Of a stretch of DNA of 63,918 nucleotides, positions 17,391 to 35,993 are shown piece after piece. The stretch is from assembly GCF_900168115.1 (NCBI RefSeq), contig NZ_FUZC01000020.1, forward strand, positions 1 through 63,918, read 5' to 3'. Origin of the DNA: Salegentibacter salinarum (GTDB lineage: Bacteria > Bacteroidota > Bacteroidia > Flavobacteriales > Flavobacteriaceae). The translations under genes and the position numbers were made by a program. Under the pieces are notes generated by a model. It was not told the origin of the DNA and did no database searches. It saw only the letters and a list, made by a program, of their open reading frames with translations. How positions within the stretch are numbered: position 1 is the stretch's first letter; each line of letters opens with the position of its first letter.

Positions 17391-17404
17391 GTAACTTTTG
17401 TTAC
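17391..17404 (+). promoter_or_regulatory. Crp/Fnr-type operator (site 1) before the TauE/SafE gene
   Basis: The palindrome GTAACTTTTGTTAC has its centre at 17397.5. The -7 box TACTTTTG at 17427-17434 is 33 bases centre-to-centre downstream, placing the operator near -41, as for class II activation. Confidence 0.72.
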
Positions 17405-17457
17405 TGCCTAACCAGAAAGCCAAAGTTACTTTTGCTGGCAACTAATAAGAAAGAACT

Positions 17458-18255
17458 TTGGAATTAATTGACATTTTAGGATACTTCGGTGCGCTTGTAA
17501 TAGGAATAACTCTGGGCCTTATTGGAGGTGGTGGATCCATTCTGACAGTACCCGTCCTGGTTTACCTGTTATCTATCAACCCCGTTACAGCAACAGCATA
17601 CTCGCTTTTTGTGGTAGGGGCTTCCACTTTAGTAGGGGCAATAAACAATATGAAGAAAAAACTGGTGGATCTTCGTACTGCCACCGTTTTTGCCATACCG
17701 GCATTTATAGCCGTCTATGGTACCAGAAAATATCTTGTACCCGCAATTCCCGACCATATTTTTACCCTATGGGGTTTTGAAGTGACCAAAGATATAGGGA
17801 TCATGTTGTTTTTTGCCATTATAATGGTAGTGGCTTCTATCTCTATGATTAAAGGTAACGGAAAGGAAGAATTGCAGGAAGTAAAAGTTAAGTATAACTA
17901 TCCGTTGATCATCGTTGAGGGGGTTGTAGTAGGTATCCTCACCGGGATAGTAGGTGCAGGTGGGGGATTTTTAATTATTCCGGCTCTGGTTTTACTCGCT
18001 AAATTACCAATGAAGAAAGCAGTGGCGACTTCCCTGCTCATCATAGCGGTAAAGTCCCTTATAGGGTTTATAGGAGATGTGGAAAACCTTGAGATAGACT
18101 GGGTATTCCTTATGATCTTTACCGGGTTGTCTATTGCCGGGATCTTCCTGGGAGGCTATCTCAATAAATTCATTGATGGCGGAAAACTTAAAAAAGGCTT
18201 TGGCTGGTTTGTGCTGGTAATGGGTATCTATATTATCGGTAAAGAGTTACTGTAA
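17458..18255 (+). CDS. TauE/SafE-family sulfite/anion exporter
   Basis: This 265-residue protein has about eight hydrophobic helices and two glycine-rich repeats typical of the family: LGLIGGGGSILTVPVLVYLL near the N-terminus and GILTGIVGAGGGFLIIPALV in the middle. TauE/SafE proteins move sulfite, sulfoacetate or related anions across the inner membrane. The frame starts at TTG 17458 (MELIDILGYFG); no in-frame ATG precedes the first helix. It has its own site 1 promoter, so expulsion of sulfite would be switched on with the persulfide pathway. Confidence 0.87.
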   Translation: MELIDILGYFGALVIGITLGLIGGGGSILTVPVLVYLLSINPVTATAYSLFVVGASTLVGAINNMKKKLVDLRTATVFAIPAFIAVYGTRKYLVPAIPDHIFTLWGFEVTKDIGIMLFFAIIMVVASISMIKGNGKEELQEVKVKYNYPLIIVEGVVVGILTGIVGAGGGFLIIPALVLLAKLPMKKAVATSLLIIAVKSLIGFIGDVENLEIDWVFLMIFTGLSIAGIFLGGYLNKFIDGGKLKKGFGWFVLVMGIYIIGKELL

Positions 18256-18552
18256 ATGCTCTTTCTGACTTCGGAAAAAAGGGATTATTTTAAGTTTATT
18301 AATCATATCCTTAAGAAGGGCGGGGAAGTGATCTTTGAAGGATTTTGCTCAAAATTCTGAATATCACACATTGAATCCTTCTGTAGAGGAACCAAAGAAG
18401 AGAAAATTTTGTTTTCAGAAAAAGTAATACGAGAGGCTTTTCACGAATTTAGTTTTGAAAAGTTTTATGAAGAAGAAATAGAAATTAACGAAGGCAAATT
18501 CCATAAAGGCAAAGGTTATGTAATCAGGTTTGTTGCTGAAAAGAATAGCTAA
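18256..18552 (+). pseudogene. Remnant of a class I SAM-dependent methyltransferase
   Basis: Two pieces of a methyltransferase C-terminal half are readable. Positions 18256-18360 give LTSEKRDYFKFINHILKKGG and VIFEGFCSKF, then a stop. From about 18409 another frame gives ILFSEKVIREAFHEFSFEKF, EINEGKFHKGKGYVIRFVAE and a stop at 18552. The SAM-binding half is gone. Methyltransferases with this C-terminus are often found beside thiol and metalloid resistance genes. It is clearly dead. Confidence 0.65.
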
Positions 18553-18615
18553 AAACAATATAATTTTAAAGTTTACAAAGGTGTCCCGGAGATGCCTTTT
18601 TTTGTTATTCCAAGT

Positions 18616-18629
18616 GTAACTTATGTTAC
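18616..18629 (+). promoter_or_regulatory. Crp/Fnr-type operator (site 2) before the HMA-TlpA-DsbD genes
   Basis: The perfect palindrome GTAAC-TTAT-GTTAC is centred at 18622.5, with the -7 box TATATTTG at 18652-18659 exactly 33 bases downstream centre-to-centre. Confidence 0.75.
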
Positions 18630-18709
18630 AAGTTGGGCCAATCCCACAGCGTATATTTGATAAAAATACAAGAAGTTCAAATGAGGTATTTAAAATTTAG
18701 AAAATAAAA

Positions 18710-18973
18710 ATGAAAACAACTATAGCAGTACAAAATTTAAAGTGTGGAGGATGTGTGAATACCATTACCACTAAGCTTTCAGAAATAGAAAATATACAAA
18801 ATGTACAGGTGGAAAAAGCGTCTTCTTCAGTAACATTCAGTTACCGGGAACCTGAAGATGCATTTAAAGTTAAAGAGAAATTGAGGAAGCTGGGATATCC
18901 TGCTGTAGATGCTAAGAATTCCCTGGCCTCCAAAGCCATTTCTGTAATAAGTTGTGCGACCGGAAAAATGTAA
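18710..18973 (+). CDS. Small heavy-metal-associated (HMA) domain protein
   Basis: The 87-residue protein has the ferredoxin-like HMA fold with metal-binding LKCGGCVNTI around residues 10-19 and a beta-strand repeat ending in KLRKLGYPAVD. Such proteins bind copper or other soft metals, or may act as a thiol carrier. It is the first gene after site 2 and precedes two thiol-disulfide genes, so a role in periplasmic thiol or metal handling is likely. There is no signal peptide. Confidence 0.86.
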   Translation: MKTTIAVQNLKCGGCVNTITTKLSEIENIQNVQVEKASSSVTFSYREPEDAFKVKEKLRKLGYPAVDAKNSLASKAISVISCATGKM

Positions 18974-19022
18974 GAATCCGGAACAGAATCTTCACAACTT
19001 TCTAAAAAAATAAATCTGTACT

Positions 19023-19616
19023 ATGAAAAAAAAGACGAAAAAAAATTTAATTGAATACGGAATCATATTTGCCATTTTCGCCGGGTTATATATAACAGGA
19101 TTACATACAGAAGTGCTGGGATTCCTTCAGCGGGGAGTGCTTGCAACAGGATTAATGGATCCCGATCTTGACAAGAATGCAGATCTTGCGGTCAACGACA
19201 CCAATTCCAAAGCAGATTTTTCAATGAGCCTTATCAATTCCAAAGGTGAAAATGTGGCCATGGAAGAGTTGAAGGGGAAGGTGATCTTTATGAACCTATG
19301 GGCAACCTGGTGCCCTCCCTGTGTTGCCGAAATGCCGGGAATTAATAAGCTTTACAAGGATATAGATAAAGACAAAGTTGCCTTTGTAATGTTATCTATA
19401 GACCAGGATTTTCAAAAAGCCATAGATTTTAATGAAAAGAAAGGTTATGACTTTGAGATCTACAGATCAAACGGACCCATTCCTCAAATGTATTCCTCCC
19501 AAAGCATCCCAACTACCTACGTGATAGATGCGAGGGGAAATCTCGTCTTGACACATATGGGAATGGGCGATTATGATACTAAGGACTTCAAGGAATTCCT
19601 TAAAAAACAATACTAA
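19023..19616 (+). CDS. TlpA-family thioredoxin, membrane anchored
   Basis: The 197-residue protein has an N-terminal membrane anchor (residues about 8-40) and a thioredoxin fold with the CxxC active site in WATWCPPCVAEMPG around residues 96-109, followed by IPTTYVIDARGN with the cis-proline. TlpA/ResA-like proteins reduce disulfides outside the inner membrane. DsbD, which could supply its electrons, is encoded next. It follows the HMA gene by 49 bases. Confidence 0.9.
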   Translation: MKKKTKKNLIEYGIIFAIFAGLYITGLHTEVLGFLQRGVLATGLMDPDLDKNADLAVNDTNSKADFSMSLINSKGENVAMEELKGKVIFMNLWATWCPPCVAEMPGINKLYKDIDKDKVAFVMLSIDQDFQKAIDFNEKKGYDFEIYRSNGPIPQMYSSQSIPTTYVIDARGNLVLTHMGMGDYDTKDFKEFLKKQY

Positions 19617-19721
19617 GTTAAAAGCAGGAATGAATTTTTCCCTGCTTCCCTTTAGCCTTTTGGTAAAATTCTTTCATGTTACCTCTACGGGATTATAAAA
19701 TTCCCAGAAATCTTTTTGTCT

Positions 19722-21836
19722 ATGAAATTATCCAATCCTATATTTTTTTTAGTGCTCCTGTTGTTTGGAGCATCCTCTGCTGTTGGGCAAATGATGGAAG
19801 CCCCACAATGGGAGGTCAACCTTAATAATCCTGATGCTGAACCGGGGGAAAAGGTGACCATTCATTTTGAAGCAGAGATTCCCGATGACTGGTACATGTA
19901 TTCCAATGATTTTGATCCTGATATAGGACCTCTCCTGACAGAATTTACTTTTGAAGAGAGTGAAGAATATGAACTTCTTGGAGATATCCAGCCGATAGGA
20001 CAAAAGAAAAAGTATGATGAGATCTGGGAGGGAGAAATCAGTTATTTTAATGAAACGGCCAACTTCTCTCAGGAAGTGCTTATAAAGAAGGATTCCCCCG
20101 AATTCACGGGAAATATTTTCTTCCAGATCTGTACGGATGTCACCGGACAGTGCATTCCTTTTGATACAGATTTCGCGTTTGATAGTACTGGAAATACCCT
20201 TATTTCTACAGGTAATGAAGGAAGCGAAATTGAAAACTCCGGAATTTCTGATATATTTTCAGCACAGGGAAATACTACGACAAAAGGAAATGAAAATGTT
20301 TCTGCAGGTGAAAATGGTGAAATTCTTGAACCATTTCAGAATTCCTTCAAAACGGAATCTGATGAGGATGATCAGACCTGGGCAGGATTACTGACTTTCT
20401 TTTTTATCTCCTTTGGAGCCGGTCTCGCAGCTTTGCTGACTCCCTGTGTTTTTCCAATGATCCCTATGACTGTAACCTTTTTCACAAAGGGTTCGGGAGG
20501 TAAAAAAGGAAAGATGAACGCGCTGCTGTACGGGCTGTTTATTATTGCCATTTACACCATTGTCGGGACTTTGTTTGCAGTGCTTTTTGGCGCCGGATTC
20601 GCAAATTTCCTCTCTACCCATTGGCTGCCGAATCTTCTGTTCTTTGCAATATTCCTGCTGTTTGCACTTTCTTTCTTCGGAATGTTTGAAATCAGGCTGC
20701 CGAATAAACTGGTGAACCGGGTAGACAAACAAGCCGACAGGGGAGGCTTGGTTGGAATATTCTTTATGGCCTTTACCCTGGTGCTGGTAAGCTTTAGTTG
20801 CACCGGTCCTATTGCAGGAACTATCTTATTGCAGGCAGCCAGTGGTGAAGCCATTATGCCTCTTATAGGAATGCTTGGGTTTTCCCTGGCTTTTGCCATC
20901 CCCTTCACGCTGTTTGCCTTTTTCCCCGGATGGCTTAGTTCGCTGCCCAAGAGTGGGGGCTGGTTGAATACAGTAAAGGTAGTACTCGGATTTCTTGAAC
21001 TGGCATTTGCCTTGAAATTTTTGAGTATGGTGGACCAGGTGTACCACTGGAATATCCTGGACAGGGACATTTACCTTGCTCTCTGGATCGTGATATTTGC
21101 TCTTTTAGGTTTTTATCTGCTCGGAAAACTTGTGTTTCCGCACGAAAAGAAGATAGAGAGTGTTTCAGTGCCGAGGCTCATGTCAGCAATTCTGGTGTTC
21201 AGTTTTGTGGTGTACCTCATTCCGGGTCTGTTCGGTGCACCCTTAAAAGCACTTTCAGGTTACTTACCGCCTATGGGATCACAGGATTTTAATATGGTAA
21301 CAGCTTCGGCTGGCCCTGAGCTGGAAAGTAGTTCCAACTCCTGCGGAACACCCTTGTACAGTGAGTTCCTTGAATTACCTCATGGGATACAGGGGTTTTT
21401 CGATTATGAACAGGCTGTTGCCTGTGCCCGGGAACAAAATAAACCCTTGTTTATCGATTTTACAGGCCACGGCTGTGTAAACTGTCGTGAAATGGAGGCG
21501 AATGTATGGAGTGATCCGGAAGTTCTAAGAAGCCTTAAAAGCGATTATGTAGTGGTTGCTTTATATGTTGACGAAAAAACAGTATTACCAAAGGATAAAT
21601 GGTATACTTCTTCCTATGACGGAAAGCTCAAGAAAACAATAGGGGCTCAGAATATGGATTTTATGATCCAGAAGCTAAATGCCAATGCACAACCGTATTA
21701 TACGCTTCTTGGAGAGGAGGGGGAACTGCTTGCCGCACCCAAAGGATATGATCTTGATATAGCAGCATTTATTTCCTTTCTGGATAAGGGAAAGGAAGCG
21801 TTTTACAAGGGAAGTATTGAAATTAAACAAGATTAA
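19722..21836 (+). CDS. dsbD: Thiol:disulfide interchange protein DsbD-like
   Basis: This roughly 704-residue protein has a signal peptide, an N-terminal DsbC-type domain (about 25-150), a linker, and an eight-helix membrane domain (about 225-500). The membrane domain holds LLTPCVFPMIPMT and VSFSCTGPIAGT, whose cysteines carry electrons across the membrane. A C-terminal thioredoxin domain has FTGHGCVNCREME near residue 585. ATG at 19722 gives MKLSNPIFFLVLL, a proper signal peptide. It would deliver cytosolic reducing power to the periplasm, here probably to TlpA and DsrE-like partners. Confidence 0.93.
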   Translation: MKLSNPIFFLVLLLFGASSAVGQMMEAPQWEVNLNNPDAEPGEKVTIHFEAEIPDDWYMYSNDFDPDIGPLLTEFTFEESEEYELLGDIQPIGQKKKYDEIWEGEISYFNETANFSQEVLIKKDSPEFTGNIFFQICTDVTGQCIPFDTDFAFDSTGNTLISTGNEGSEIENSGISDIFSAQGNTTTKGNENVSAGENGEILEPFQNSFKTESDEDDQTWAGLLTFFFISFGAGLAALLTPCVFPMIPMTVTFFTKGSGGKKGKMNALLYGLFIIAIYTIVGTLFAVLFGAGFANFLSTHWLPNLLFFAIFLLFALSFFGMFEIRLPNKLVNRVDKQADRGGLVGIFFMAFTLVLVSFSCTGPIAGTILLQAASGEAIMPLIGMLGFSLAFAIPFTLFAFFPGWLSSLPKSGGWLNTVKVVLGFLELAFALKFLSMVDQVYHWNILDRDIYLALWIVIFALLGFYLLGKLVFPHEKKIESVSVPRLMSAILVFSFVVYLIPGLFGAPLKALSGYLPPMGSQDFNMVTASAGPELESSSNSCGTPLYSEFLELPHGIQGFFDYEQAVACAREQNKPLFIDFTGHGCVNCREMEANVWSDPEVLRSLKSDYVVVALYVDEKTVLPKDKWYTSSYDGKLKKTIGAQNMDFMIQKLNANAQPYYTLLGEEGELLAAPKGYDLDIAAFISFLDKGKEAFYKGSIEIKQD

Positions 21837-22599: not shown

Positions 22600-24157
22600 C
22601 TAATTTTCGAAATTTTTGATAACAAATTCATTTAGTTGAATTTCCTTCTTCTCAATATTTTTCCCTTTCCCCAGTTCATCGTAGCGATGAAGCCCAATCA
22701 GCATCCCGATGTGCGTGACGATCTTATAATTTTTTTTCAGATCTAGATCTTCTCCTTTCACCTGTACATCACTTATACGATTACCGGTGGGTTTGGAATA
22801 ATCTAAGGTATAACTAACTCCGCTACTTTACAGCAGGCCACCTACCATCTCATATTTATCTCTCGGTTTTTGATTGGTGGTTGTTTGCTCAAGGGTAGTC
22901 TTGACCTGTTCTCTGGTAAGGGTAAGAGTTGCCACTTTTGATGGGTGAGGGATTAACCTGGACAGGTTTTTACGTGTAATATCTCCCTGCAGGGAAATAC
23001 CGTATCCTACTCCAGGTAGAAAAGAAATATCTACATCATATTCCTCAAGCAGCAAATTTCCAACAAGTTTTTCAAACGGACTTTCACTTTTGTATTGCCT
23101 GTGGATCACCTCTGTTGCCGTTGCTATGTTCTCCTCCAGGTGGTCCCCGGTGTGGAGCACGTAGCTCTTCAATAAGAGATCCCATCTCCGGGTCTTTCTC
23201 GTAATCACTCAACCACAGAAAATGATGTAGTGCTTTTACCCCGGTTAATTTGCGATCTCTGATTTTCAGCTCAATTTCACCCAGAGCTGCGGCATCTGCC
23301 ATGGCCTGTACCATGAAAGTATTAATGATTCTTTCAGGACCTGAAATGAGGTCGTGGCTATGACCTCCAAGGATCATATCGATCTCACTGAATTCTTCTG
23401 CAATTAATCTGTCAACAGCAGTTCCCTGATGGGAAAGCAGGACGATGATATCTGCCTGTTCCTTAAGTTCGTGCAATATTTCGTTTAACACCTCATTCCC
23501 ACGCCGGAACTCAAGGTCGTTCATATTTTTTGAGTTACCCGTAAGATTGGTGTTGTGGTATCCCAGTGAAAGTAGTGCGATCTTAGTTCCTTCGACTTCT
23601 TTTAAGATATAAGGATTCCCGAAAAATGCTTTTGTCTTTATATAGAGCTGTGATGTTGGCAGCACCAAAGGGAAAGCCGGCGATTTTCATTAATTCTTCG
23701 GTGCGTTTCTTGCCCTAATCGAAATCGTGACTTCCAAGAGAGAGGTAGTCAAAAGCTAATGCCTTCATCATCTTATGACCGCTTCTCCTTCCGTTAAATT
23801 CCCAAGAAGGTCATCACTAAAGGTATCGCCGGAATCCAGCAGGAGGACGTTTCCATCTTCCCTTGAATTCCTGATCTCCTTTACGGCTGTTGCCAATACG
23901 GCAAAACTTCATATTGGGGCCAGCTTATTAAAGGTGATCAATGTATCTCTGCCTGCATCCCCTGTTTAAGAAGTGGCACTTACGGTAGTTGTTAAGAAAG
24001 GCATATAGTTGCCATGGATATCGTTCGTATGAAGTATGGTAAAGGTTTGATCTTGCTGCGCTTCATGAGCCGGGGTGGGCGTTCCTTTACCATAAGCGGT
24101 AAATACTGCAAACACGACTACCATACTTAAAGTCTTTACTGTTTTGTCTAATCTCAT
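22600..24157 (-). pseudogene. Broken secreted metallophosphatase/5'-nucleotidase
   Basis: Pieces of one protein are found in order but in different frames: a signal peptide and TILHTNDIHGNYMPF (24157-23966), the metal-site segment with LLSHQGTAVDRL and MILGGHSHDL (about 23668-23150), and the C-terminal domain (23208-22828). After an in-frame TAA the text resumes as SSGVSYTLDYSKPTGNRIS...LHRYDELGKGK to a stop at 22600. At least two frameshifts and one nonsense codon are present. It is a paralogue of the intact neighbour at 24254-25909 and appears recently inactivated. Confidence 0.82.
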
Positions 24158-24195
24158 CTCAGTGCATTTTTTATTGATAATTTCAGTCTTTAAAA

Positions 24196-24235
24196 AGAAA
24201 AAGCCTACCAATTCTTTGTTAGAAAAGGCAGGCTC
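24196..24235 (-). terminator. Terminator after the intact 5'-nucleotidase gene
   Basis: On the minus strand AGCCTGCC pairs with GGTAGGCT around an 18-base loop, followed by a T-rich tract. It separates the seven-unit minus-strand operon from the dead paralogue. Confidence 0.7.
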
Positions 24236-25920: not shown

Positions 25921-26340
25921 TTATAGTTGTAAACTGTAATAATTTTTATTTTTCTGTAGCTGGAAAAGGTGCGTATAAGCGTGGTCGACCACCTGTATGT
26001 ACTTGTGCAATTCGGATTGATCTATCCCCTGCCTGTCCAGGGAGATCTTGCACACAAAGATGCTGACTCCTGCAGCTTTAGCTTTGCCGGTGTAAGTTTC
26101 CATCTCTTCCTTATTTGTAAGTCCTTTCACATTGGATCCATACATCACGATCTGGAAGTCGCCATACTTATCCCCGTCCTCTTCCCTCAAAGCTTCGGCT
26201 GTAAGAATTATTGGTTGTAGTTGCGGAATCTTAGTTGTTGACACCACGTAGTTGTTCAAATCTCCCTGTGGATTTGTTTGAGCATTGCCGGTAATCCCCA
26301 GCATAATAAGCAGCATAAAAATTCCTAATGATCTTTTCAT
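25921..26340 (-). CDS. Periplasmic DsrE-like protein 1
   Basis: The 139-residue protein has a signal peptide ending GITGNAQ, then a DsrE/DsrF-type alpha/beta domain with IVMYGSNVKGL (residues about 64-74) and the cysteine segment AAGVSIFVCKISLDRQGID. Cytosolic relatives carry persulfide on such a cysteine. Export to the periplasm suggests sulfur carriage there, perhaps with the neighbouring nucleotidase. It is about 40 percent similar by eye to the next gene. Confidence 0.78.
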   Translation of the reverse strand: MKRSLGIFMLLIMLGITGNAQTNPQGDLNNYVVSTTKIPQLQPIILTAEALREEDGDKYGDFQIVMYGSNVKGLTNKEEMETYTGKAKAAGVSIFVCKISLDRQGIDQSELHKYIQVVDHAYTHLFQLQKNKNYYSLQL

Positions 26341-26351
26341 AGCTCTGTTTT

Positions 26352-26768
26352 TTAAAGCGAAATGCTAGTGTAGCCTTTCTTTTGCAGCTGAAGGTTGTAT
26401 AGGATCCCGTTCTCGACAACGCGAAATTCCGGGGAAATATCCTTGCGGTCCACTCCGAATTTATTCAGAGAGAATCCACAGGCGACCAACTCAACATCCT
26501 GTTCTTTAGCTTTATTGATATATTTCTGCATCATTTCTTTATCGGTAAGCTCCTTCACTGTTTGTCCGCAAATGATCACCTCGAATTTTCCGAAGTTATT
26601 TCCATCTTCTTCAGCTAAAGTTTCGGCAGTTAAAAAGATAGGTTGTAGCTGAGGGATCTTCTTTGTTAAGACCACATAATTCTGCTGTTCGTCCTGTACC
26701 TGTGCATTTGCTGGGCTACTTATTAAAGCAAGAAGAAGTACGATACTGCTTAAAAAATACATTTTCAT
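26352..26768 (-). CDS. Periplasmic DsrE-like protein 2
   Basis: The 138-residue paralogue of the preceding protein has a signal peptide ending SSPANAQ, then VIICGQTVKELTDKEMMQ and QDVELVACGFSLNKFGVD with the presumed sulfur-carrying cysteine. Both paralogues share the opening NYVV-T-KIPQLQPI-LTAE. Two secreted DsrE-like proteins side by side could form a heteromer, as DsrEFH proteins do. It is three bases from the DoxX gene stop. Confidence 0.78.
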   Translation of the reverse strand: MKMYFLSSIVLLLALISSPANAQVQDEQQNYVVLTKKIPQLQPIFLTAETLAEEDGNNFGKFEVIICGQTVKELTDKEMMQKYINKAKEQDVELVACGFSLNKFGVDRKDISPEFRVVENGILYNLQLQKKGYTSISL

Positions 26769-26770
26769 AG

Positions 26771-27214
26771 TTATTTGTTTTTTACGCTCAATTCGGTTTG
26801 AGCAGGGTTTGTTTCTGTTACTGATTCTTTATTAAGATCATTAAGGATAAAAAAGAGAAGCCCGCCAATAATGGCAATGTTCTTAAACAATGGGCCAAGA
26901 GTATTGATTTGTCCTACCTGTACGGTAAGGGTAATTGGTATAAGAACGGCGAGAAGCACAATTGCGGTCCACCGGGTTTTGAATCCTATAAGAAAGGAAA
27001 TACCTGCTATAAGCATCACAATTCCGGAAAGGATTACAAGTAATTCAGGATTGCCAAAGAAATAAGCAATCCCTTTGAAACTGGCCTGATCTATTCGGTT
27101 TGCCGTTTGCTCTACATTCATCAAATGGTTTACGCTGGCTATTAAGAAAATGCCGCTTAGCATAATTCGTAAAACCTGAATGGAGCGACGGCTTACACTA
27201 ATATGAGTCGTCAT
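26771..27214 (-). CDS. DoxX-family membrane protein
   Basis: The 147-residue protein has four hydrophobic helices with the DoxX-like opening RIMLSGIFLIASVNHLMNVE and the later GIVMLIAGISFLIGFKTRWT. DoxX subunits are linked to thiosulfate:quinone oxidoreductase in archaea and to membrane redox complexes in bacteria. Here it lies within an operon with DsrE-like proteins, consistent with thiosulfate or sulfane-sulfur oxidation. Confidence 0.83.
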   Translation of the reverse strand: MTTHISVSRRSIQVLRIMLSGIFLIASVNHLMNVEQTANRIDQASFKGIAYFFGNPELLVILSGIVMLIAGISFLIGFKTRWTAIVLLAVLIPITLTVQVGQINTLGPLFKNIAIIGGLLFFILNDLNKESVTETNPAQTELSVKNK

Positions 27215-27290
27215 AAAATATTATCATTGAGTCCAGATAGCTAAAGCCACTGAAACGTGAGAAAAAAGGTTAAAACTTTCCTGAAAAGTA

Positions 27291-27659
27291 TTAAGCTTTT
27301 GGTGGAGGGTAGAACCTGTCTCGGTTGGAATCTGGCAGGGAAGGGGAGTGATAAGCATATGCCCTGGATTCATCGAGTACTATAGGGTTTTCCCAGTTAA
27401 AGATCTCGAATTTGAAGGAAGTATTACAAAAGGTGTCCATGGATATACTCAATTGATTGGAATCCACAGTAAAGGTTGCCGGGCTGGTATCTCCGTCTAT
27501 TTTAGCATTTTGTTTAGCATTTTGTTTTTCGCAAAACGGGTTTACATAGACAATTTCATCAGTATCCAGTAGGACGACCAGGAATTTAGAATCCATCACC
27601 AGGAACTTTCCGAAGAAAATAAAGACAAACAGGATCGCTATGTAAGATTTCCATTTCAT
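27291..27659 (-). CDS. Hypothetical small exported protein, first gene of the DsrE operon
   Basis: The 122-residue protein has one N-terminal hydrophobic helix (about residues 5-30), probably an uncleaved anchor, then a short domain with two cysteines (FCEKQ near 44 and FCNTS near 78) and a proline-rich end FYPPPKA. The repeat KQNAKQNAK is notable. I do not recognise the family. It is immediately preceded by site 3 and its own -7 box, so it is co-regulated with and probably leads the operon running to the nucleotidase. Confidence 0.65.
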   Translation of the reverse strand: MKWKSYIAILFVFIFFGKFLVMDSKFLVVLLDTDEIVYVNPFCEKQNAKQNAKIDGDTSPATFTVDSNQLSISMDTFCNTSFKFEIFNWENPIVLDESRAYAYHSPSLPDSNRDRFYPPPKA

Positions 27660-27697
27660 AAGAGTTCCAAATATAAAAATTTTCTTCCGTTCGATTT

Positions 27698-27711
27698 GTG
27701 ACTTATGTTAC
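27698..27711 (-). promoter_or_regulatory. Crp/Fnr-type operator (site 3) before the DoxX/DsrE operon
   Basis: GTGACTTATGTTAC (one base off the palindrome) is centred at 27704.5. On the minus strand the -7 box TATATTTG occupies 27675-27668, exactly 33 bases away centre-to-centre and 9 bases before the start codon. It is back to back with site 4. Confidence 0.68.
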
Positions 27712-27744: not shown

Positions 27745-27758
27745 GTAACTTTTGTTAC
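27745..27758 (+). promoter_or_regulatory. Crp/Fnr-type operator (site 4) before the porin gene
   Basis: The perfect palindrome GTAACTTTTGTTAC is centred at 27751.5. The spacing of 33 bases falls on GAGCTTTG (27781-27788), a one-base deviation from TAnnTTTG. This puts transcription start near 27795 and supports ATG 27809 as the real start of the porin. Confidence 0.7.
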
Positions 27759-27808
27759 TGAAGTTAAATTAGGAAATGGAGAGCTTTGTGGCAAACCCTA
27801 ATTTACCC

Positions 27809-29173
27809 ATGAAGGCCATATTTATTATACTCTTATTTTTCTTTCAATTCACTCTCTTCTCCCAGGAGTATATACCAAAAAATGATCACCGGGAGAACCG
27901 GTTAGGGGACATTATAAGAGAAGGTACCGTACATGGTCATATCCGTAATTTTTTTATGACAACTGTTAATAGTGAAGATCTTACAAATTATTATACAAAT
28001 GCCACAGGTGGGGCTGTTGGATTTACCACCGGTAATTATAAAGGATTTGAAATAGGGGTGAAGGGTATTTTTACTTTTAAAACCTTTGGCAGTGATCTTG
28101 GCCTGGAAGATCCTATAACCGGGGCAAATGCAAAATGGGAGTATGAACTTTATGATGTATTAAATCAAGGAAACTTTAAGGACCTGGACAGGCTGGAGGA
28201 ACTTTTTATACGCTACAGTTTTGGAAATTCCTATATCTCCTATGGTAAGCTGGAAACAGAATATACTCCTTTGCTCAACCACAGTGACGGGAGGATGAAA
28301 CCTTTCGCGCACCGGGGGTTTTGGGGATATCTAAATTTGAATCCACAGAACACTATCAACATTGGATTGCTGGATGGAGTATCTCCCCGTTCTACAACTG
28401 AGTGGTTTGACCTGGAGGAAGGGATAGGACTTTTCTTCAACGGGTTCCAACCAAACGGGGAGAGGGCAAATTATCATGAAATTTATCCTGTGAATGGCAT
28501 AGGGGTCTTTAATTATAATTATAAAATTAAAAATTTTAATTTCGCTATTTATGATGTCTTCATCGATAAACTACATAATACTGTGTGGACAGAAGCAAAT
28601 TATGTTTATGATGGATTTAACCTGGGATTGCAGTACGTTTATCAAACGCCAATGAATTTTTCTGAAGGCCTGGCGTACGAAAACCGCTATATACAGCCAG
28701 ATGAGAATGGACAGGTTATAAGTTCGCAGCTGGGATGGGGGAATAATAGATTTAATTTCGGTTTTGCCTATACCCACGCTTTTGATACCGGCCGTTTTCT
28801 TTTCCCTAAAGAATTGGGGAGGGACAGGTTTTTTACCTCCATCCCAAGATCTAGGTTGGAAGGTTTAGGAGCTGCCAATGTTTATACTATTAAAGGAGAA
28901 TTCCTGCTTCCTCGCCCAGATTTACATTTTGGTGTAGAACTGCAACAGGTCAAAGGAACAACTCCCGGAGATTTCCAGTTAAATAAATATAATGTAGATG
29001 AATCTTTCCAGGTTAATACGCATTTGACTTTTGCAGTAAATGGTTTCTTTGATGGGCTTAGTTTTGACCTTCTTTGGGTTTACCGTGAAAATAAAAACAC
29101 CAGGGATGCAGAAAGTATTTTTAACAAGAGTAATTTTAATCAGTTCAATTTTGTGACAAATTTTATTTTTTAA
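27809..29173 (+). CDS. OprD-like outer membrane porin
   Basis: The protein of about 454 residues starts MKAIFIILLFFFQFTLFSQ, a signal peptide. A beta-barrel follows, with alternating aromatic strands and a C-terminal phenylalanine (NFVTNFIF), the normal outer-membrane insertion signal. It resembles Bacteroidota OprD-family porins for small substrates. An in-frame ATG at 27776 would start before the deduced promoter and is rejected. It may admit thiosulfate or other sulfur anions to the periplasm. Confidence 0.8.
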   Translation: MKAIFIILLFFFQFTLFSQEYIPKNDHRENRLGDIIREGTVHGHIRNFFMTTVNSEDLTNYYTNATGGAVGFTTGNYKGFEIGVKGIFTFKTFGSDLGLEDPITGANAKWEYELYDVLNQGNFKDLDRLEELFIRYSFGNSYISYGKLETEYTPLLNHSDGRMKPFAHRGFWGYLNLNPQNTINIGLLDGVSPRSTTEWFDLEEGIGLFFNGFQPNGERANYHEIYPVNGIGVFNYNYKIKNFNFAIYDVFIDKLHNTVWTEANYVYDGFNLGLQYVYQTPMNFSEGLAYENRYIQPDENGQVISSQLGWGNNRFNFGFAYTHAFDTGRFLFPKELGRDRFFTSIPRSRLEGLGAANVYTIKGEFLLPRPDLHFGVELQQVKGTTPGDFQLNKYNVDESFQVNTHLTFAVNGFFDGLSFDLLWVYRENKNTRDAESIFNKSNFNQFNFVTNFIF

Positions 29174-29254
29174 AAAACCTCTAAAGAACCACATAAACTC
29201 ATTATCTACACTTTCTTTCCGGTAAGGTGGATAATAATATTAATAGTAATAGAG

Positions 29255-30505
29255 ATGAGGACTGAAGATATAAAACTTGGTTTAAAAGAAAACTGGAAGC
29301 AATTTACGCTACTGGTGCTGGTCAATGCTTTTGTTGGTGGCATGGTGGGGCTGGAGCGGAGTATTTTACCGGAGATTGCCGAAAAGGAATTCGGAATGGC
29401 AGCGACTTCCGCTATTCTCTCCTTTATAGTGGTTTTCGGTATTGTAAAAGCAATCTCTAATTACTATGCGGGAGCACTGGCAAATAAGTTCGGCCGGAAA
29501 AATTTACTCGTACTGGGATGGATCTTTGCCATCCCCATTCCTTTTATCCTTATGTATGCGGAAAACTGGAACTGGATCATTGGTGCCAATGTGCTGCTGG
29601 GAATCAATCAGGGGCTTGCCTGGTCAAGTACCGTGGTTATGAAAATAGACCTGGTAGGTGAGAAGCAACGAGGATTTGCGATGGGTCTCAATGAATTTGC
29701 GGGATATCTTGCTGTTGCCGTCGTTGCTTTCCTCACAGGGTGGATCGCAGGAGAATATGGTTTAAGGCCATACCCTTTTTATCTGGGAATTCTTTTAATG
29801 ATTCTGGGGTTAGTTATGAGTATCTTTTTTATTAAGGACACCCGCGGCCATGCAAAGAAAGAAGAAGGTAGTAGTACAGTTTCTCTTCTGAAAAATATCT
29901 TTTGGGATACCACCTGGAAGGACAAGAACCTGGGATCTGTGACCCAGGCGGGACTAATCAACAACCTGAATGACGGGATGGCCTGGGGACTTTTTCCAAT
30001 CCTGCTGGCCGCTAAAAATTTTAGCCTGGAGCAAATTGGTATTGTAGTGGCTATTTATCCCGCAGTATGGGGCCTGGGCCAGCTCTTCACTGGAAAAATG
30101 GCAGATAAATTCTCAAAAAAAGACATGCTTTTCTACGGAATGCTTTTACAGTCCCTTGTCCTTATCACCCTGGTTTGGGCAGAAAGCTTGTGGCATTTTA
30201 TTGTTCTAATGTCGCTACTGGGTTGGGGCACGGCGATGGTCTACCCCACGTTCCTTGCCACAATTGCAGACAATACCCACCCCAGGGATCGGGCTAAAAG
30301 TATTGGAATTTTCAGACTATGGAGAGATCTTGGCTATGCAGTTGGGGCAATTCTTACAGGGGTCATTTCTGACTTAATTAGTATTGAAGCTGCAATTATG
30401 ACCGTGGGACTAATAACTTTTGTTTCTTCTTGTATCATTTTCTTTAGAATGAAAAACAAAGATGTTGCTCCCAGCCTTGTTTCAATCTTCAGGCATAGCT
30501 CATAG
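29255..30505 (+). CDS. Major facilitator superfamily transporter
   Basis: The 416-residue protein has twelve hydrophobic segments. MFS signature loops are readable: GALANKFGRKNLLVLGW between helices 2 and 3, and GKMADKFSKKDMLFYG in the second half. Helix 1 contains GLERSILPEIAEKEFG. The substrate cannot be deduced. It follows the porin by 81 bases with no terminator and no operator, so it probably shares the porin transcript: an outer and inner membrane pair. Confidence 0.88.
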   Translation: MRTEDIKLGLKENWKQFTLLVLVNAFVGGMVGLERSILPEIAEKEFGMAATSAILSFIVVFGIVKAISNYYAGALANKFGRKNLLVLGWIFAIPIPFILMYAENWNWIIGANVLLGINQGLAWSSTVVMKIDLVGEKQRGFAMGLNEFAGYLAVAVVAFLTGWIAGEYGLRPYPFYLGILLMILGLVMSIFFIKDTRGHAKKEEGSSTVSLLKNIFWDTTWKDKNLGSVTQAGLINNLNDGMAWGLFPILLAAKNFSLEQIGIVVAIYPAVWGLGQLFTGKMADKFSKKDMLFYGMLLQSLVLITLVWAESLWHFIVLMSLLGWGTAMVYPTFLATIADNTHPRDRAKSIGIFRLWRDLGYAVGAILTGVISDLISIEAAIMTVGLITFVSSCIIFFRMKNKDVAPSLVSIFRHSS

Positions 30506-30573: not shown

Positions 30574-30587
30574 GTAACAATTGTTAC
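30574..30587 (+). promoter_or_regulatory. Crp/Fnr-type operator (site 5) before the persulfide dioxygenase gene
   Basis: The perfect palindrome GTAACAATTGTTAC is centred at 30580.5, and the perfect -7 box TAAATTTG at 30610-30617 is again exactly 33 bases downstream. Confidence 0.76.
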
Positions 30588-30648
30588 TGCCAAAGGTGTT
30601 TTTTGAAAGTAAATTTGTATCAGTAAATAAAATAATAAAGTATTGATT

Positions 30649-31986
30649 ATGACTATAAAACAATTTAAAGACGATCCATTAGCACATTATTCGTATGCTA
30701 TAGTTAGTAAAGGTGAAATGGCTTTGGTTGACCCCAGCCGTAATCCTAAACAATATTATAAATTTGCTGAAGAGCACAACGCAAACATTGTAGCGGTTCT
30801 TGAAACCCATCCTCATGCCGACTTTGTGAGCGGACATTTACAAATTCACAATGAAACAGGCGCGACTATTTACGTGAGCGAAAAAGTAGGAGTAAATTAC
30901 CCTCATAAACCTTTTGATGAAGGACAATCAGTGAAAATTGGAAAAATTAACATCCGACCATTGCACACTCCCGGTCACTCGCCGGACAGTTTGGCCTTTG
31001 TTGCGGAAGAAAATGGTGAAACTGCATTATTTACGGGAGATACTTTATTTATCGGCAATGTTGGCCGGCCCGATCTTCGCGAAAAAGCTGGAAATATGAA
31101 ATCAAAACGGGTGGAACTTGCGAAGGCAATGTATAACACCATGCAAACCAAATTCAATGATCTACCAGATAATTCCATAGTTTACCCAGCACACGGTGCA
31201 GGTTCGTTATGTGGTAAAAATATGAGTGCCTCGCCTTCGAGCACCCTTGGCGATGAGCGTATAGGGAACTGGGCTTTTAAAGACCAGACTGAAGAAGAAT
31301 TTGTTGAGGAGATCCTTAAAGATCAACCCTTTATTCCCTCCTATTTTGGATTTAATGTGGATTTGAACAGAAACGGCGCAGGAAATGTACAGCAGGAGAA
31401 ATATCGTGTTCCGCTAAGAGTAGGTGTAAATGATGTTGAAGAAGGTATTACAGTGGTAGATGTGAGAGATGGAGATTCCTATAAAGCGGGACACCTGCCA
31501 TACAGTATCAATATTATGTCCCGCACCGAGGGCGATAAATATGAGACATGGCTGGGAGCCATTATTGAGCCGAAGGAACCATTTTATCTGGCTGTAAACT
31601 CTGTAGAGAATATAGATGAGCTTCTCGAAAGAACCGCTAAAATCGGGTATGAGAAGCAAATGAAAGGGGTGGTAACCTTGAGTGAAAAAGTTTCCCGAAC
31701 ATCTAGTGATTTGGATCTTCAAAATTTTAAAGACAACAAGGATAATTATACCATAGTAGATATTAGAAACGAAAGTGAACTGGCCGAAGGTAAGATCTTT
31801 GACAGCGCCATAGGAATTCCACTTAACGAATTAAGAAACCGTGCAGATGAATTACCAAAAGACAAGCCGTTTGTGGTACACTGTGCCGGTGGATATAGAT
31901 CTGCTGCCGGAAGCAGTATCCTTGAGAATAAGTTTAAAGATCAAAAGGTATTTGATCTGAGTGAAGCAATTGAGGATTTTAAATAA
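30649..31986 (+). CDS. Persulfide dioxygenase-rhodanese fusion (CstB/ETHE1-like)
   Basis: The protein of about 445 residues starts with a metallo-beta-lactamase-fold dioxygenase: ETHPHADFVSGHL (metal ligands), TPGHSPDSLAF and FTGDTLFIGNVGRPDL. Two rhodanese domains follow. The first (about 265-350) has lost its cysteine. The second has the active loop HCAGGYRSA near residue 415. CstB-type enzymes oxidise low-molecular-weight persulfides to sulfite and thiosulfate, which fits the sulfite exporter and YeeE genes nearby. ATG 30649 is used, since the frame upstream only has TTG. Confidence 0.92.
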   Translation: MTIKQFKDDPLAHYSYAIVSKGEMALVDPSRNPKQYYKFAEEHNANIVAVLETHPHADFVSGHLQIHNETGATIYVSEKVGVNYPHKPFDEGQSVKIGKINIRPLHTPGHSPDSLAFVAEENGETALFTGDTLFIGNVGRPDLREKAGNMKSKRVELAKAMYNTMQTKFNDLPDNSIVYPAHGAGSLCGKNMSASPSSTLGDERIGNWAFKDQTEEEFVEEILKDQPFIPSYFGFNVDLNRNGAGNVQQEKYRVPLRVGVNDVEEGITVVDVRDGDSYKAGHLPYSINIMSRTEGDKYETWLGAIIEPKEPFYLAVNSVENIDELLERTAKIGYEKQMKGVVTLSEKVSRTSSDLDLQNFKDNKDNYTIVDIRNESELAEGKIFDSAIGIPLNELRNRADELPKDKPFVVHCAGGYRSAAGSSILENKFKDQKVFDLSEAIEDFK

Positions 31987-32530: not shown

Positions 32531-32751
32531 AATAACCTTCTTTGTGTTATTCACCTTCAATTTAAGGAAAACAAAAAATATCTTCTAACTTTTAAAATAG
32601 AATTGGGAAATAATAAGTTCAGTGTTTCTATCTAAGAGGACGCTGTATAAGTTTTTCTTAAAACAAGGTTAAGGTTTACTAATCCAGAGAGGATCTATTT
32701 TTATAACCAGTTAATAATGTGTAAATTGAATAGATTTTTAAAAACCGTAGT

Positions 32752-33519: not shown

Positions 33520-33583
33520 TGAAGTAGTAGCCGCAACGTGAGTTGATTTTTCGGAGCTCAGGACTTTGCTGGACTCCAATAAA

Positions 33584-33617
33584 AAATCCCACATTCCACC
33601 AAAGGAATCCGGGATTT
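33584..33617. terminator. Bidirectional terminator between convergent genes
   Basis: AAATCCC-ACA-TTCC pairs with GGAA-TCC-GGGATTT, flanked by A and T residues, between the OBAP gene and the oppositely oriented OsmC gene. Confidence 0.65.
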
Positions 33618-33637
33618 GAATCTATATATAAAGCTGC

Positions 33638-34087
33638 TTAAGCAGTATGTTTTTCTGAAATAAAAACTTTAGTTTTCAAATGAACTTTAGAAGTTATTGA
33701 GTTCGAAATAAGACAGGCTCTTTCTGCTTTGATCATTATCTTTTCTGCTTTTTCTCTTTCAGCCTCATTTGGAATGGTTACTACAGGCTTTAAAATGATC
33801 TCTGTCATTGCGAATTTTCCACCTTTTTTATCCAATATACCTTCTGCAGGGCAGGTAAGGCTTTCAAATTCTAAATTAGAATATTCGGCAATTGCCAGGA
33901 AAGTAGTCATAAAACAACTGCTTACTGCAGCGGTAAAAAGATGTTCGGGAGACCAGATTCCGGGCATTCCTTTAGGAAATTCCGGCGGAGTTGCAACTTC
34001 AACTTTCTGGTCAAGAACCGGAGAAGAAATTTCTCCTTTTCTGTCCATTTTCCATTCAAGATCTACGTGATATTTATGTGCTTCCAT
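33638..34087 (-). CDS. OsmC-family peroxiredoxin-like protein
   Basis: The 149-residue protein has the OsmC arrangement with an N-terminal beta part (KYHVDLEWK), the first cysteine in SSCFMTTFLAIAEYSNLEFES (about 58-78) and a second in AERACLISNSI near 127. Family members reduce organic hydroperoxides or act on low-molecular-weight persulfides with this cysteine pair. It lies immediately downstream of the YgaP/rhodanese operon genes and may be co-transcribed. Confidence 0.88.
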   Translation of the reverse strand: MEAHKYHVDLEWKMDRKGEISSPVLDQKVEVATPPEFPKGMPGIWSPEHLFTAAVSSCFMTTFLAIAEYSNLEFESLTCPAEGILDKKGGKFAMTEIILKPVVTIPNEAEREKAEKIMIKAERACLISNSITSKVHLKTKVFISEKHTA

Positions 34088-34126
34088 ATTTGTTAGTTTA
34101 ATTTTTAAAGATACACTGCGATTTTC

Positions 34127-34345
34127 TTATTGTTTATGATCTGTATCAGGTTTGAATTCGCAGGTTCCTGTGGCGCAATTTCCAGATGCACAACCAAATG
34201 CAAATAATCCCATTGCAGCCGGCCAAGCGCCAAGTAATACCCCGATCCAATGACCTTCAACAGCGCTTTGTACTATTACCCAAACTCCAATAATGAGATA
34301 GACGGCGCGCATCCAGGTCCAGTTGATAAAGATCCTGTTGATCAT
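34127..34345 (-). CDS. YgaP-like two-helix membrane protein (DUF2892)
   Basis: The 72-residue protein has two membrane helices: WTWMRAVYLIIGVWVIVQSA and a second including VLLGAWPAAMGLFAFGCASG. It ends CATGTCEFKPDTDHKQ. In YgaP such helices are fused behind a rhodanese domain. Here the rhodanese is the separate gene directly upstream, with adjacent stop and start. The three C-terminal cysteines may take part in sulfur transfer at the membrane. Confidence 0.82.
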   Translation of the reverse strand: MINRIFINWTWMRAVYLIIGVWVIVQSAVEGHWIGVLLGAWPAAMGLFAFGCASGNCATGTCEFKPDTDHKQ

Positions 34346-34663
34346 TTAACCAATTTTATTGTTAAGGCTGGACCAACTTCCGCCGTTATGAACATTGTTG
34401 TAACCTTGAGACTTTAGCAAGCTCCTGGCTGAAGCACTTCTCATTCCCGAAGCACAGCAGGTAATAATGGACTTATTCTTATTCTTGGGAATTCCCGGAT
34501 TAGAATTTAGATTTGGTAATGGAATATTTTTAGATCCCTTAATGTGTCCGCCGGCATATTCAGCTTTGCTTCTCACATCTACAATTATTCCGCCTTCTTT
34601 AAGCAGCTGATTATAATCTGGTACCGGGGAAAAACCCAACATTTCTTTTAGTTTGTTGAACAT
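34346..34663 (-). CDS. Rhodanese-like sulfurtransferase 2
   Basis: The 105-residue single rhodanese domain has IVDVRSKAEYAGGHIKGSKNIPLPNL and active-site loop CCASGMRSA near residue 69. It has a short N-terminal extension, KLKEMLGFSPVPDYNQLLKEG, as in YgaP-type forms. It lies one base after the preceding rhodanese stop and directly before the two-helix protein. Confidence 0.9.
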   Translation of the reverse strand: MFNKLKEMLGFSPVPDYNQLLKEGGIIVDVRSKAEYAGGHIKGSKNIPLPNLNSNPGIPKNKNKSIITCCASGMRSASARSLLKSQGYNNVHNGGSWSSLNNKIG

Positions 34664-34664
34664 A

Positions 34665-34949
34665 TTATGCTTCTTGAGAGGTTAGATAATTTACATCAAG
34701 CCAGGAGCCACCGTTAACACAATCTACTCCCTGGCGGCTAACATAATTTGTTGCCTGTCCACTTCTGTTCCCGGATGCACAGCAAAAGATTATAGGTGTT
34801 TTCATCTCTTTTAGTTCGTCGATCCTTTGTTGTATCTCATTTAATGGAATATTCACGGCGCCGGAAACACTTCCTCCCATAAACTCACCGGGAGTGCGCA
34901 CATCTACTATGGTACCTGCGTTGTTTTTAATTATTTCTTCTGTATTCAT
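34665..34949 (-). CDS. Rhodanese-like sulfurtransferase 1
   Basis: The 94-residue single rhodanese domain has IVDVRTPGEFMGGSVSGAVN and active loop CCASGNRSG near residue 51. It heads the four-gene operon rhodanese-rhodanese-YgaP-like-OsmC behind site 6. Proteins of this kind move sulfane sulfur to acceptors and are the usual companions of CstB-type dioxygenases. Confidence 0.9.
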   Translation of the reverse strand: MNTEEIIKNNAGTIVDVRTPGEFMGGSVSGAVNIPLNEIQQRIDELKEMKTPIIFCCASGNRSGQATNYVSRQGVDCVNGGSWLDVNYLTSQEA

Positions 34950-35044
34950 AATTGTTATGTTTTTAGTTTTAAACTGGTTAATTTCAGCGGTTATACCTAA
35001 CTGAATTATACCCGCAAATTTAAACCTAAAGCCAAATTCCCACA

Positions 35045-35058
35045 GTTACTTTTGTTAC
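35045..35058 (-). promoter_or_regulatory. Crp/Fnr-type operator (site 6) before the rhodanese operon
   Basis: GTTACTTTTGTTAC on the plus strand (one base off the palindrome) is centred at 35051.5. Reading the minus strand, the perfect -7 box TAAATTTG lies at 35022-35015, exactly 33 bases away centre-to-centre. Confidence 0.7.
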
Positions 35059-35228
35059 ATAAGAAGTTGGGCTTCAGCAATAAAAAAGTGAAGAAGAAGA
35101 GGAGTTTCTGAAGAATGTTTTAGAATAATGAAAGTGCAATCTTAGTTAAGATTCTTCGGAAGAAATATAAATTCAGGAGTAGCGGAAAAGAATTCAGGAA
35201 TTGCTTTTTTGACTACCCCTGAAGATGT

Positions 35229-35726
35229 TTAGGAAAGCCGTTCAATTACCGTTTTAAGCTTCGACTGAACTTCCTGAGCTATACCTCCTAACTCATCATT
35301 CTCTATTGCAGTCATTGAAGCTACGGGATCTACGGCAGAAACTTCTATCTTACCATCTTCTGTTTCCTGAACAATTACATTACAGGGCAGCATGGTCCCA
35401 ATCTTACTTTCGGCAGAGATTGCTTGATATGCCATCTTAGGATTACAAGCTCCCAGGATTCGGTATTTCCTGAAATCCAAATCCAGTTTCTTTTTGAAAG
35501 TTTCTTTTATATCAATTTCGGTAAGGATACCAAATCCCTCCTCTTTTAATTCTCTTAAATTTACCTCTTTTAAACCGGCAGGAAAAAAACTTAATACTAA
35601 TCTTATGTGAAGATAGGGAACTTTGAAAGCGTTAATTATCAGAAAGGATAAAATCGGCAGCCATTTGTGCATGAAGTTGTGTGCTTGCGAGAAGGGGTAG
35701 ATGATAGTCCTTTTCTCCATAAGCAT
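35229..35726 (-). CDS. DUF302 protein with foreign or damaged N-terminus
   Basis: Residues about 58-165 of this frame are a DUF302 domain: LKEEGFGILTEIDIKETFKK, YRILGACNPKMAYQAI and IGTMLPCNVIVQE. The domain should start some 15-20 residues earlier, but the preceding frame (MLMEKRTIIYPFSQAHNFMH...) belongs to the racemase remnant upstream. Either a non-ATG start just before the domain is used, or the gene lost its own start. DUF302 genes usually accompany sulfur and metal stress genes. I am unsure it is expressed. Confidence 0.6.
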   Translation of the reverse strand: MLMEKRTIIYPFSQAHNFMHKWLPILSFLIINAFKVPYLHIRLVLSFFPAGLKEVNLRELKEEGFGILTEIDIKETFKKKLDLDFRKYRILGACNPKMAYQAISAESKIGTMLPCNVIVQETEDGKIEVSAVDPVASMTAIENDELGGIAQEVQSKLKTVIERLS

Positions 35727-35850
35727 TGGCAGCTCGGTACAACCATGTATGATCCCTTCTGCTCCTTTTGCTTGAGCCTTTGCATTTGCTCAAGGAAGAA
35801 AAATTTGGATTCCCCGCTAAAGATTACCCGGGTTAGTTCGGCAGACACGT
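35645..35850 (-). pseudogene. C-terminal remnant of an aspartate/glutamate racemase
   Basis: The minus strand reads AKGAEGIIHGCTELPMLMEK, the second-cysteine motif of Asp/Glu racemases. A frameshift follows, and LHAQMAADFILSDN then completes the usual LHAKAAVDF ending. Everything before the motif is missing or interrupted by stops. It is a small scar between the DUF302 gene and the YeeE pair. Confidence 0.6.
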
Positions 35851-35927
35851 AAGGAAGATTTTAAATTATAAACTGAGCATCGGGAATAATGGTCTCAATT
35901 CCGTATTCGGCTATTTATGCTCATATT

Positions 35928-35941
35928 GTAACATTTGTTAC
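35928..35941 (+). promoter_or_regulatory. Crp/Fnr-type operator (site 7) before the YeeE pair
   Basis: The perfect palindrome GTAACATTTGTTAC is centred at 35934.5. Thirty-three bases on lies TTTCTTTG (35964-35971), a one-base deviation from TAnnTTTG, about 22 bases before the start codon. Confidence 0.72.
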
Positions 35942-35993
35942 GGTCCATTGATTAAAATCATTCTTTCTTTGCACCCATAAAAAAAGAATATAT

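Follow-up and report, generated by a model that had tools for sequence, protein, structure and literature searches.

A predicted Crp/Fnr-controlled sulfur regulon in Salegentibacter salinarum, with a second copy in a tRNA-Arg island

Sulfur genes and operator-box units at tRNA-Arg

The window analysed here is a stretch of 63,918 nucleotides of Salegentibacter salinarum (assembly GCF_900168115.1, contig NZ_FUZC01000020.1). It contained a set of genes predicted to act on reduced sulfur, including a TauE/SafE exporter, a predicted persulfide dioxygenase (PDO), rhodaneses and a YeeE/YedE-type pair, as well as a gene at 16746 for a Crp/Fnr-family regulator and seven palindromes that each stood at one fixed distance from a promoter-like box (Table 1). 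Judged from sequence, these seven sites are very probably the operators of the 16746 protein acting as a class II activator, and the sulfur regulon to which they would belong appears to be widespread, the set in the tRNA-Arg island being a second copy.

The first-pass annotation of this DNA had described seven GTAAC-N4-GTTAC 14-mers, five perfect and two with one change, and all were found at the same coordinates. The distance of 33 bp from operator centre to box centre was likewise reproduced: the end of the operator lay 22 nt from a TAnnTTTG-like box in seven of seven cases, on the strand of the gene that it preceded, with the operators at 27698 and 35045 reversed before minus-strand genes and the remaining five on the plus strand. 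Five boxes were exact (TACTTTTG once, TATATTTG twice and TAAATTTG twice) and two carried one change (GAGCTTTG at 27781 and TTTCTTTG at 35964), the same counts as before. When spacers of 0 to 69 nt were scanned, 22 nt gave a box in all seven operators and every other spacer in at most one; the window background for a box with at least five of its six fixed bases was about 0.01 per position and strand. Palindromes with at most one mismatch numbered nine in the window, as against a mean of 0.78 and a maximum of 4 in dinucleotide shuffles, and the two additional one-mismatch sites (1428 and 16434), read by eye, had no box at the 22-nt spacing. TAnnTTTG is a published promoter motif of Bacteroidetes, according to the accessible part of PMC6414381. 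The box before the porin ended at 27788, within a mechanical open reading frame (ORF) starting at 27776; the gene should therefore start later, for example at the ATG at 27809, which opens a signal-peptide-like stretch. The earlier proposal that the unit at 27745 decides the porin start thus holds.

Table 1. Coordinates of the sulfur island, its genes and its operator-box units in the window.
Feature	Position	Strand	Basis
tRNA-Arg(acg), integration site	9845..9919	+	
att core, left end of sulfur island	9895..9920	+	26-bp exact repeat
Integrase, N-terminal part only (Arm and SAM-like domains)	10140..10841	+	PF17293, PF13102
Coupling protein (T4SS-DNA_transf), DUF5712 protein, small ORF; mobilisation-type	11365..14436	-	
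Crp/Fnr-family regulator, 210 aa, predicted activator; Cys77, Cys83, Cys84; helix SRVVISR	16746..17378	+	
Operator GTAACTTTTGTTAC before TauE	17391..17404	+	palindrome match
-7 box TACTTTTG	17427..17434	+	box scan
TauE/SafE exporter	17458..18255	+	PF01925 1.1e-42
Operator GTAACTTATGTTAC before HMA-TlpA-DsbD	18616..18629	+	palindrome match
-7 box TATATTTG	18652..18659	+	box scan
HMA domain protein, TlpA-like thioredoxin, DsbD-like protein	18710..21836	+	PF00403, PF08534/PF00578; PF02683, PF11412
Two DsrE-like proteins, DoxX, small protein; predicted operon	25921..27659	-	PF02635, PF07681
-7 box TATATTTG	27668..27675	-	box scan
Operator GTAACATAAGTCAC (one change) before DoxX/DsrE operon	27698..27711	-	palindrome match
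Operator GTAACTTTTGTTAC before porin	27745..27758	+	palindrome match
-7 box GAGCTTTG (one change)	27781..27788	+	box scan
Porin-like protein (start revised from 27776) and MFS transporter	27809..30505	+	
Operator GTAACAATTGTTAC before PDO	30574..30587	+	palindrome match
-7 box TAAATTTG	30610..30617	+	box scan
Metallo-beta-lactamase/rhodanese fusion, predicted PDO	30643..31986	+	PF00753 2.7e-16, PF00581 5.2e-16
Two rhodaneses	34346..34949	-	PF00581 for 34346-34663; both genes matched rhodanese-type NCBIfam models below cut-off
-7 box TAAATTTG	35015..35022	-	box scan
Operator GTAACAAAAGTAAC (one change) before rhodaneses	35045..35058	-	palindrome match
Operator GTAACATTTGTTAC before YeeE pair	35928..35941	+	palindrome match
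-7 box TTTCTTTG (one change)	35964..35971	+	box scan
YeeE/YedE-type pair	35994..36971	+	PF04143; PF20398/DUF6691
att core where the sulfur island ends and the second island begins	37555..37580	+	

Several gene names in the set are close to the limits of the profiles. One DsrE-like protein scored just below the PF02635 cut-off of 22.7 bits (21.8) and the other just above it (22.9), and the predicted PDO matched the NCBIfam Blh model at 6.1e-12, far under its cut-off. The small protein of the DoxX/DsrE operon (27291-27659) had no family in the profile search. The porin-like protein matched no Pfam or NCBIfam family and was named, tentatively, from a tblastn match to a stretch of Pontibacter Paks1 that contains an annotated porin. 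A second 5'-nucleotidase-like gene, seemingly broken across several frames, lay at 22828-24211, and a locus of Salinimicrobium sediminis (L052, 13167-14738) was homologous to this region.

The sulfur set lay inside a 27.7-kb element bounded by repeats of the tRNA-Arg 3' end, an exact 26-bp sequence that starts at 9895, 37555 and 63812 (the last copy at 63812-63837); these ends agree with the earlier view of the set as cargo of a mobile element. The element has the features of a genomic island, namely a tRNA 3'-end target, flanking direct repeats and an integrase (N-terminal part only), and the integrase part was followed by the coupling protein, the DUF5712 protein, RadC and SSB. The family search of the integrase gene matched no catalytic domain, so the element may now be fixed, and its present mobility appears doubtful. 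An integrase homolog also lay within 1.5 kb at 8 of the 13 other PrmA/tRNA loci of the genus. A second element of 26.2 kb stood in tandem at the same tRNA and harbored genes of polysaccharide type, which were named, by reading, as SusC/SusD-like, glycosidase-like and hybrid two-component genes.

The regulator protein and a second copy of the regulon

The 16746 protein belongs to the Crp/Fnr superfamily, with a beta barrel like those that bind cyclic nucleoside monophosphates and a Crp-type winged helix-turn-helix. Its AlphaFold model, built from 14 sequences, had a predicted local distance difference test score (pLDDT) of 86, with residues 79-84 below 50, and showed the Crp fold in a VIA-align comparison. 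Cyclic AMP-dependent CRP proteins carry a phosphate-binding cassette (Gly-Glu-Leu ... Arg-Ser-Ala), and FNR carries N-terminal cysteines that hold a 4Fe-4S cluster. Aligned against Vfr, the 16746 protein had Ala and a gap in place of the Gly-Glu of the cassette and RSE in place of RSA; the NCBIfam CRP model scored 48 bits against a cut-off of 266, which does not place the protein among the cAMP-type CRPs. FNR-type N-terminal cysteines were absent, the only cysteines being Cys77, Cys83 and Cys84. FNR-type iron-sulfur sensing and cAMP sensing are therefore not supported, neither the cysteines nor a Vfr-type cassette being kept.

The recognition helix (SRVVISR) resembles that of NtcA (STRVTVTR), the second-best PDB relative by sequence, and its residues Arg182 and Arg187 were invariant in 139 homologs. 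The protein is not an NtcA ortholog by TIGR03697 (45.2 bits, cut-off 244.95). In the available text of PMC3898017 the NtcA site is GTA-N8-TAC at about -41.5, and GTAAC-N4-GTTAC is a special case of this pattern. The operator base followed residue 183 of the helix in 58 of the 59 homologs, among 139, for which the nearest same-strand unit lay within 1.5 kb: Val183 occurred with GTAAC-type operators (48 rows without a GTGAC half) and Glu183 with a GTGAC half (10 rows), and a single Val row had a GTGAC half. The operators of Glu183 homologs kept the 22-nt spacer. This match supports a link between regulator and operators but does not prove it. Together with the conserved adjacency described below, it supports the earlier proposal that the Crp/Fnr protein is the likely regulator, which stays a prediction.

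All 139 homologs had Cys77; 95 had Cys83 and 81 had Cys84. In the Vfr alignment Cys77 falls where the cyclic-nucleotide cassette begins, and the best PDB match by sequence, 3dv8, also has a cysteine at this place. Its invariance makes Cys77 a candidate sensor, and persulfide sensing at this residue is put forward as a hypothesis.

In the 4.3-Mb genome there were 12 perfect palindromes, as against 4 for the reversed control: five in the island, six on contig C13 and one, which had no box, on contig C24. All six C13 palindromes had a box (at least five of six fixed bases) at 22 nt. This 253-kb contig, presumably chromosomal, carried a regulator 74% identical to the 16746 protein, and its operators preceded homologs of the window gene set, with TauE, the porin, the YeeE pair and TlpA among the targets. 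Another C13 operator stood before a 235-aa gene, the first of a divergent run with DoxX and DsrE homologs, and another before a gene of 304 aa, judged hydroxylase-like from reading alone, that overlapped the PDO start; the TlpA operator (C13:17439) lay about 72 kb from the regulator. Outside the window, 106 sites had one mismatch (122 forward sites with at most one mismatch, less the 12 perfect and 4 in the window), and none of the 38 whose flanks were read had a box at 22 nt. The first-pass annotation had held that an equal density of such units elsewhere in the genome would speak against an island-wide regulon; as far as flanks were read, the units were not equally dense, yet with six on C13 they were not confined to the island either. 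An island-only regulon is thereby ruled out, and the novelty that had been claimed for the island is not supported, given this second regulator and the regulator matches in 166 of 199 genomes of the family. With the C13 set present, the island set duplicates a regulon found elsewhere in the genome; the C13 copy is probably native, and the wide regulon is the main object, with the island as a second, probably transferred copy. Both regulators have the same recognition helix and probably act on each other's operators.

Among 15 genomes of the genus, 12 had one regulator copy, one (61% complete) had none and two, S. salinarum (G000) and a congener (G494), had two. The second regulator of the congener was 81% identical and lay elsewhere on a 4.7-Mb contig, in a cassette (L240) with TauE, PDO, the YeeE pair, TlpA, DsbD, DUF1264, a nucleotidase and a partial DsrE at the edge of the stretch. 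The best named match to the island regulator was that of Salinimicrobium sediminis (87% identical), on a 1.68-Mb contig that contained TauE, TlpA, DsrE, DoxX, PDO and rhodaneses in the gene order of the window and shared four of its units (TauE, TlpA, PDO and rhodanese). Going by this identity, a Salinimicrobium-like bacterium was probably the donor of the island copy.

Spacing and targets in related genomes

The predicted regulon is widespread in Flavobacteriaceae and is found in part across Bacteroidota. The regulator matches in the 199 family genomes (E 1e-30) comprised 152 close and 14 remote ones, and 117 of 296 phylum genomes had a match at 1e-20; several relatives carried their copies on contigs of 3.9-4.4 Mb, which are chromosomes. 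Around the regulators of relatives, 29 loci gave 41 boxes at 22 nt, and no other spacer had more than 4. With the wider pattern GTNAC-N4-GTNAC, the 137 loci that held the 139 homologs, window and C13 included, gave 112 boxes at 22 nt and no more than 10 at each of the other spacers, in agreement with the fixed, class II-like layout suggested for the seven window units. Distinct perfect palindromes in 91 loci had a box at 22 nt in 126 of 150 cases. The unit consensus was built solely from units selected for a box and is therefore no evidence for the box. Twenty control stretches from these genomes, 212 kb in all, contained no operator-box unit, and the counts were 74 in 377 kb for 66 closer loci and 19 in 625 kb for 60 distant regulator loci. 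Of the 39 closer loci L023-L061, 27 had a unit directly downstream of the regulator gene. The density of perfect palindromes per Mb was 1.94 where the regulator was close (152 genomes), 1.39 where it was remote (14 genomes) and 0.71 where there was none (33 genomes); for the 152 versus the other 47 genomes the Mann-Whitney p was 3e-13, or 4e-6 with genomes of at least 2.5 Mb only.

Targets were assigned in 33 loci, among them the window and C13, that had been selected for the presence of the regulator or of its cluster. Of 107 units there, 66 preceded homologs of window genes (PDO 20, TauE 18, YeeE 8, regulator 5, rhodaneses 5, the small ORF before DoxX 4, TlpA 3, porin 2 and HMA 1), 35 preceded other ORFs and 6 no ORF. 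A family search on five representatives of the 35 ORFs returned a type III SQR-like protein (234.6 bits, cut-off 525), a peroxiredoxin (295.8 bits, cut-off 211), fragments of CydA (cytochrome bd subunit I) and of the sulfate permease SulP, both under cut-off, and a TtrB-like iron-sulfur subunit, also under cut-off. TauE, PDO or YeeE stood within 5 kb of 34 of 76 regulators with enough flank, as compared with 0 of 20 control stretches.

Plasmid records with a relative of the regulator numbered 23, of which six were read. Two of these, Pontibacter akesuensis Paks1 (L068) and Spirosoma linguale pSLIN02 (L070), had units at the same spacing with GTCAC/GTGAC-type halves; both are typed as mobilizable and carried the regulator with TauE, metallo-beta-lactamase/PDO and YeeE genes. 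At the thresholds used, no units were found on the Persicobacter psychrovividus, Thiothrix, Azospirillum and Paracoccus plasmids read.

Alternative explanations and comparison with known systems

In the proposed mechanism, a dimer of the 16746 protein would bind GTAAC-N4-GTTAC. The centre of this site lies 33 bp before the -7 box, which would be roughly -40 relative to the transcription start; the operator would take up the -33 region there, and the dimer would touch RNA polymerase and activate transcription. The targets would handle reduced sulfur (the predicted PDO, rhodaneses, TauE, the YeeE-type pair, DsrE/DoxX, TlpA/DsbD and the porin), and the inducer would most likely be reactive sulfur species sensed via the invariant Cys77. 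Operator binding, activation, the signal and the cross-talk between copies are all inferred from sequence comparison. A single exact spacing over many promoters would point to contact with RNA polymerase, and hence to activation and not repression. Repression, in which the protein would block the promoters until a sulfur species released it in the manner of BigR, is unlikely: the operator overlaps the -33 region, and known persulfide regulators include repressors (PMC7315123 and PMC9774590, in their accessible parts), but a repressor needs no exact spacing, whereas 22 nt was kept in the 137 loci, and fold and geometry fit class II activators. That the operators belong to another regulator, with the Crp/Fnr gene as a mere neighbour, is less likely still. 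A unit also occurs far from the regulator, the one at about 72 kb on C13, but the operator base tracks residue 183, a unit directly follows so many of the closer regulator genes, and sites are scarcer in genomes without the regulator. That the seven sites arose by chance or from the base composition of an AT-rich region is scarcely credible; palindromes with at most one mismatch are at background in the genome, where the forward pattern had 122 matches and its reversed control 165, but chance is rejected by the spacing conserved over the 137 loci, the lack of a box at the 38 one-mismatch sites and the empty control stretches.

A signal other than sulfur, such as oxygen, nitric oxide, a cyclic nucleotide or redox state, is a serious if doubtful possibility for an activator of the same regulon. 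It differs from the activator reading set out above in the signal only, and the two confidences overlap. The lack of N-terminal iron-sulfur cysteines, the cyclic-nucleotide cassette that is not kept relative to Vfr and the predominance of sulfur genes among the identified targets argue against it.

Several observations weigh against a sulfur-sensing activator of a family-wide regulon. No close type III SQR was found in the S. salinarum genome (best 29% identity), and a vicinal dithiol sensor formed by Cys83 and Cys84 is weakened by members that lack both residues beside the same sulfur genes. The target counts are biased by the choice of loci, and most PDO assignments among the 107 units were at 33-40% identity. 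The residue-operator match comes down to two independent contrasts on the tree, both in the expected direction (sign test p 0.5); the naive Fisher p of 1e-11 is for this reason not independent and was set aside as strong statistics. The palindrome alone is not enriched over the family, as the reversed control was above it in all three groups (2.83 per Mb with a close regulator, 2.29 with a remote one and 2.18 with none) and itself differed slightly between groups (p 0.02); the evidence therefore lies in the contrast between groups and in the fixed box. Only 59 of 139 homologs had an operator-box unit on their own strand within 1.5 kb, and 9 of the 39 closer loci, including Salinimicrobium xinjiangense (L054), had no unit within that distance. 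Furthermore, a Cys-Gly-Gly subgroup of regulators (L114, L118, L119, L124 and others) was often found beside TauE, PDO and YeeE and mostly had no operator-box unit, so that geometry or operator would change in part of the family. A broader reading, namely a phylum-wide sulfide/persulfide regulon with a new class of Crp/Fnr sensor, in which a single invariant cysteine replaces the cassette and reads reactive sulfur, and which has moved repeatedly as one block of sensor, operators, promoters and enzymes (the tRNA-Arg island, the congener cassette and the Pontibacter and Spirosoma plasmids), is conceivable but somewhat short of probable.

Bacteroidota are abundant heterotrophs, and the switching of their sulfur oxidation genes is apparently undescribed in the open-licence papers searched, among which no report of a Crp/Fnr regulator of these genes in Bacteroidota was found, judging by titles and the openings of abstracts. 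From the unit of operator, 22 nt and TAnnTTTG, promoters, transcription starts and targets can be predicted in many genomes, and any genetically tractable flavobacterium would serve to test it. An activator and its operators in one block would explain how the cassette could work at once in a new host.

Class II activator sites lie near -41.5, and CRP/FNR class II promoters have, as here, a dimer operator at a fixed distance upstream of a core promoter element; they differ in that the element here is the Bacteroidota box and the distance was taken to this box, not to a mapped start. The NtcA regulon of cyanobacteria shares the GTA-N8-TAC core, the class II position and Arg-Val-x-x-x-Arg in the recognition helix. 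On the other hand, NtcA senses 2-oxoglutarate and controls nitrogen genes, whereas sulfur genes and the TAnnTTTG box are involved here. Plasmid p1 of Paracoccus sediminicola (L067) contained a regulator 31% identical to the 16746 protein beside YeeE, DUF6691 and metallo-beta-lactamase-fold genes, although no unit of this operator-box form was found on it; this remote regulator also stood beside sulfate permease and cydB genes. The persulfide regulons of FisR, BigR/SqrR and CstR overlap in their targets with the regulon described here, but FisR (a sigma-54 activator), BigR/SqrR (ArsR family) and CstR (CsoR-like) belong to families unrelated to the Crp/Fnr regulator. In the accessible portions of PMC9774590, a 2022 review, and PMC7315123, the persulfide and sulfide regulators (CstR, SqrR/BigR and FisR) are of other families, and in that portion of the review Crp is named nowhere but in the references. 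The closest in targets are two Acinetobacter regulons, those of FisR and BigR, which, as far as the available text of PMC7315123 goes, comprise PDO, SQR, TauE and YeeE/YedE.

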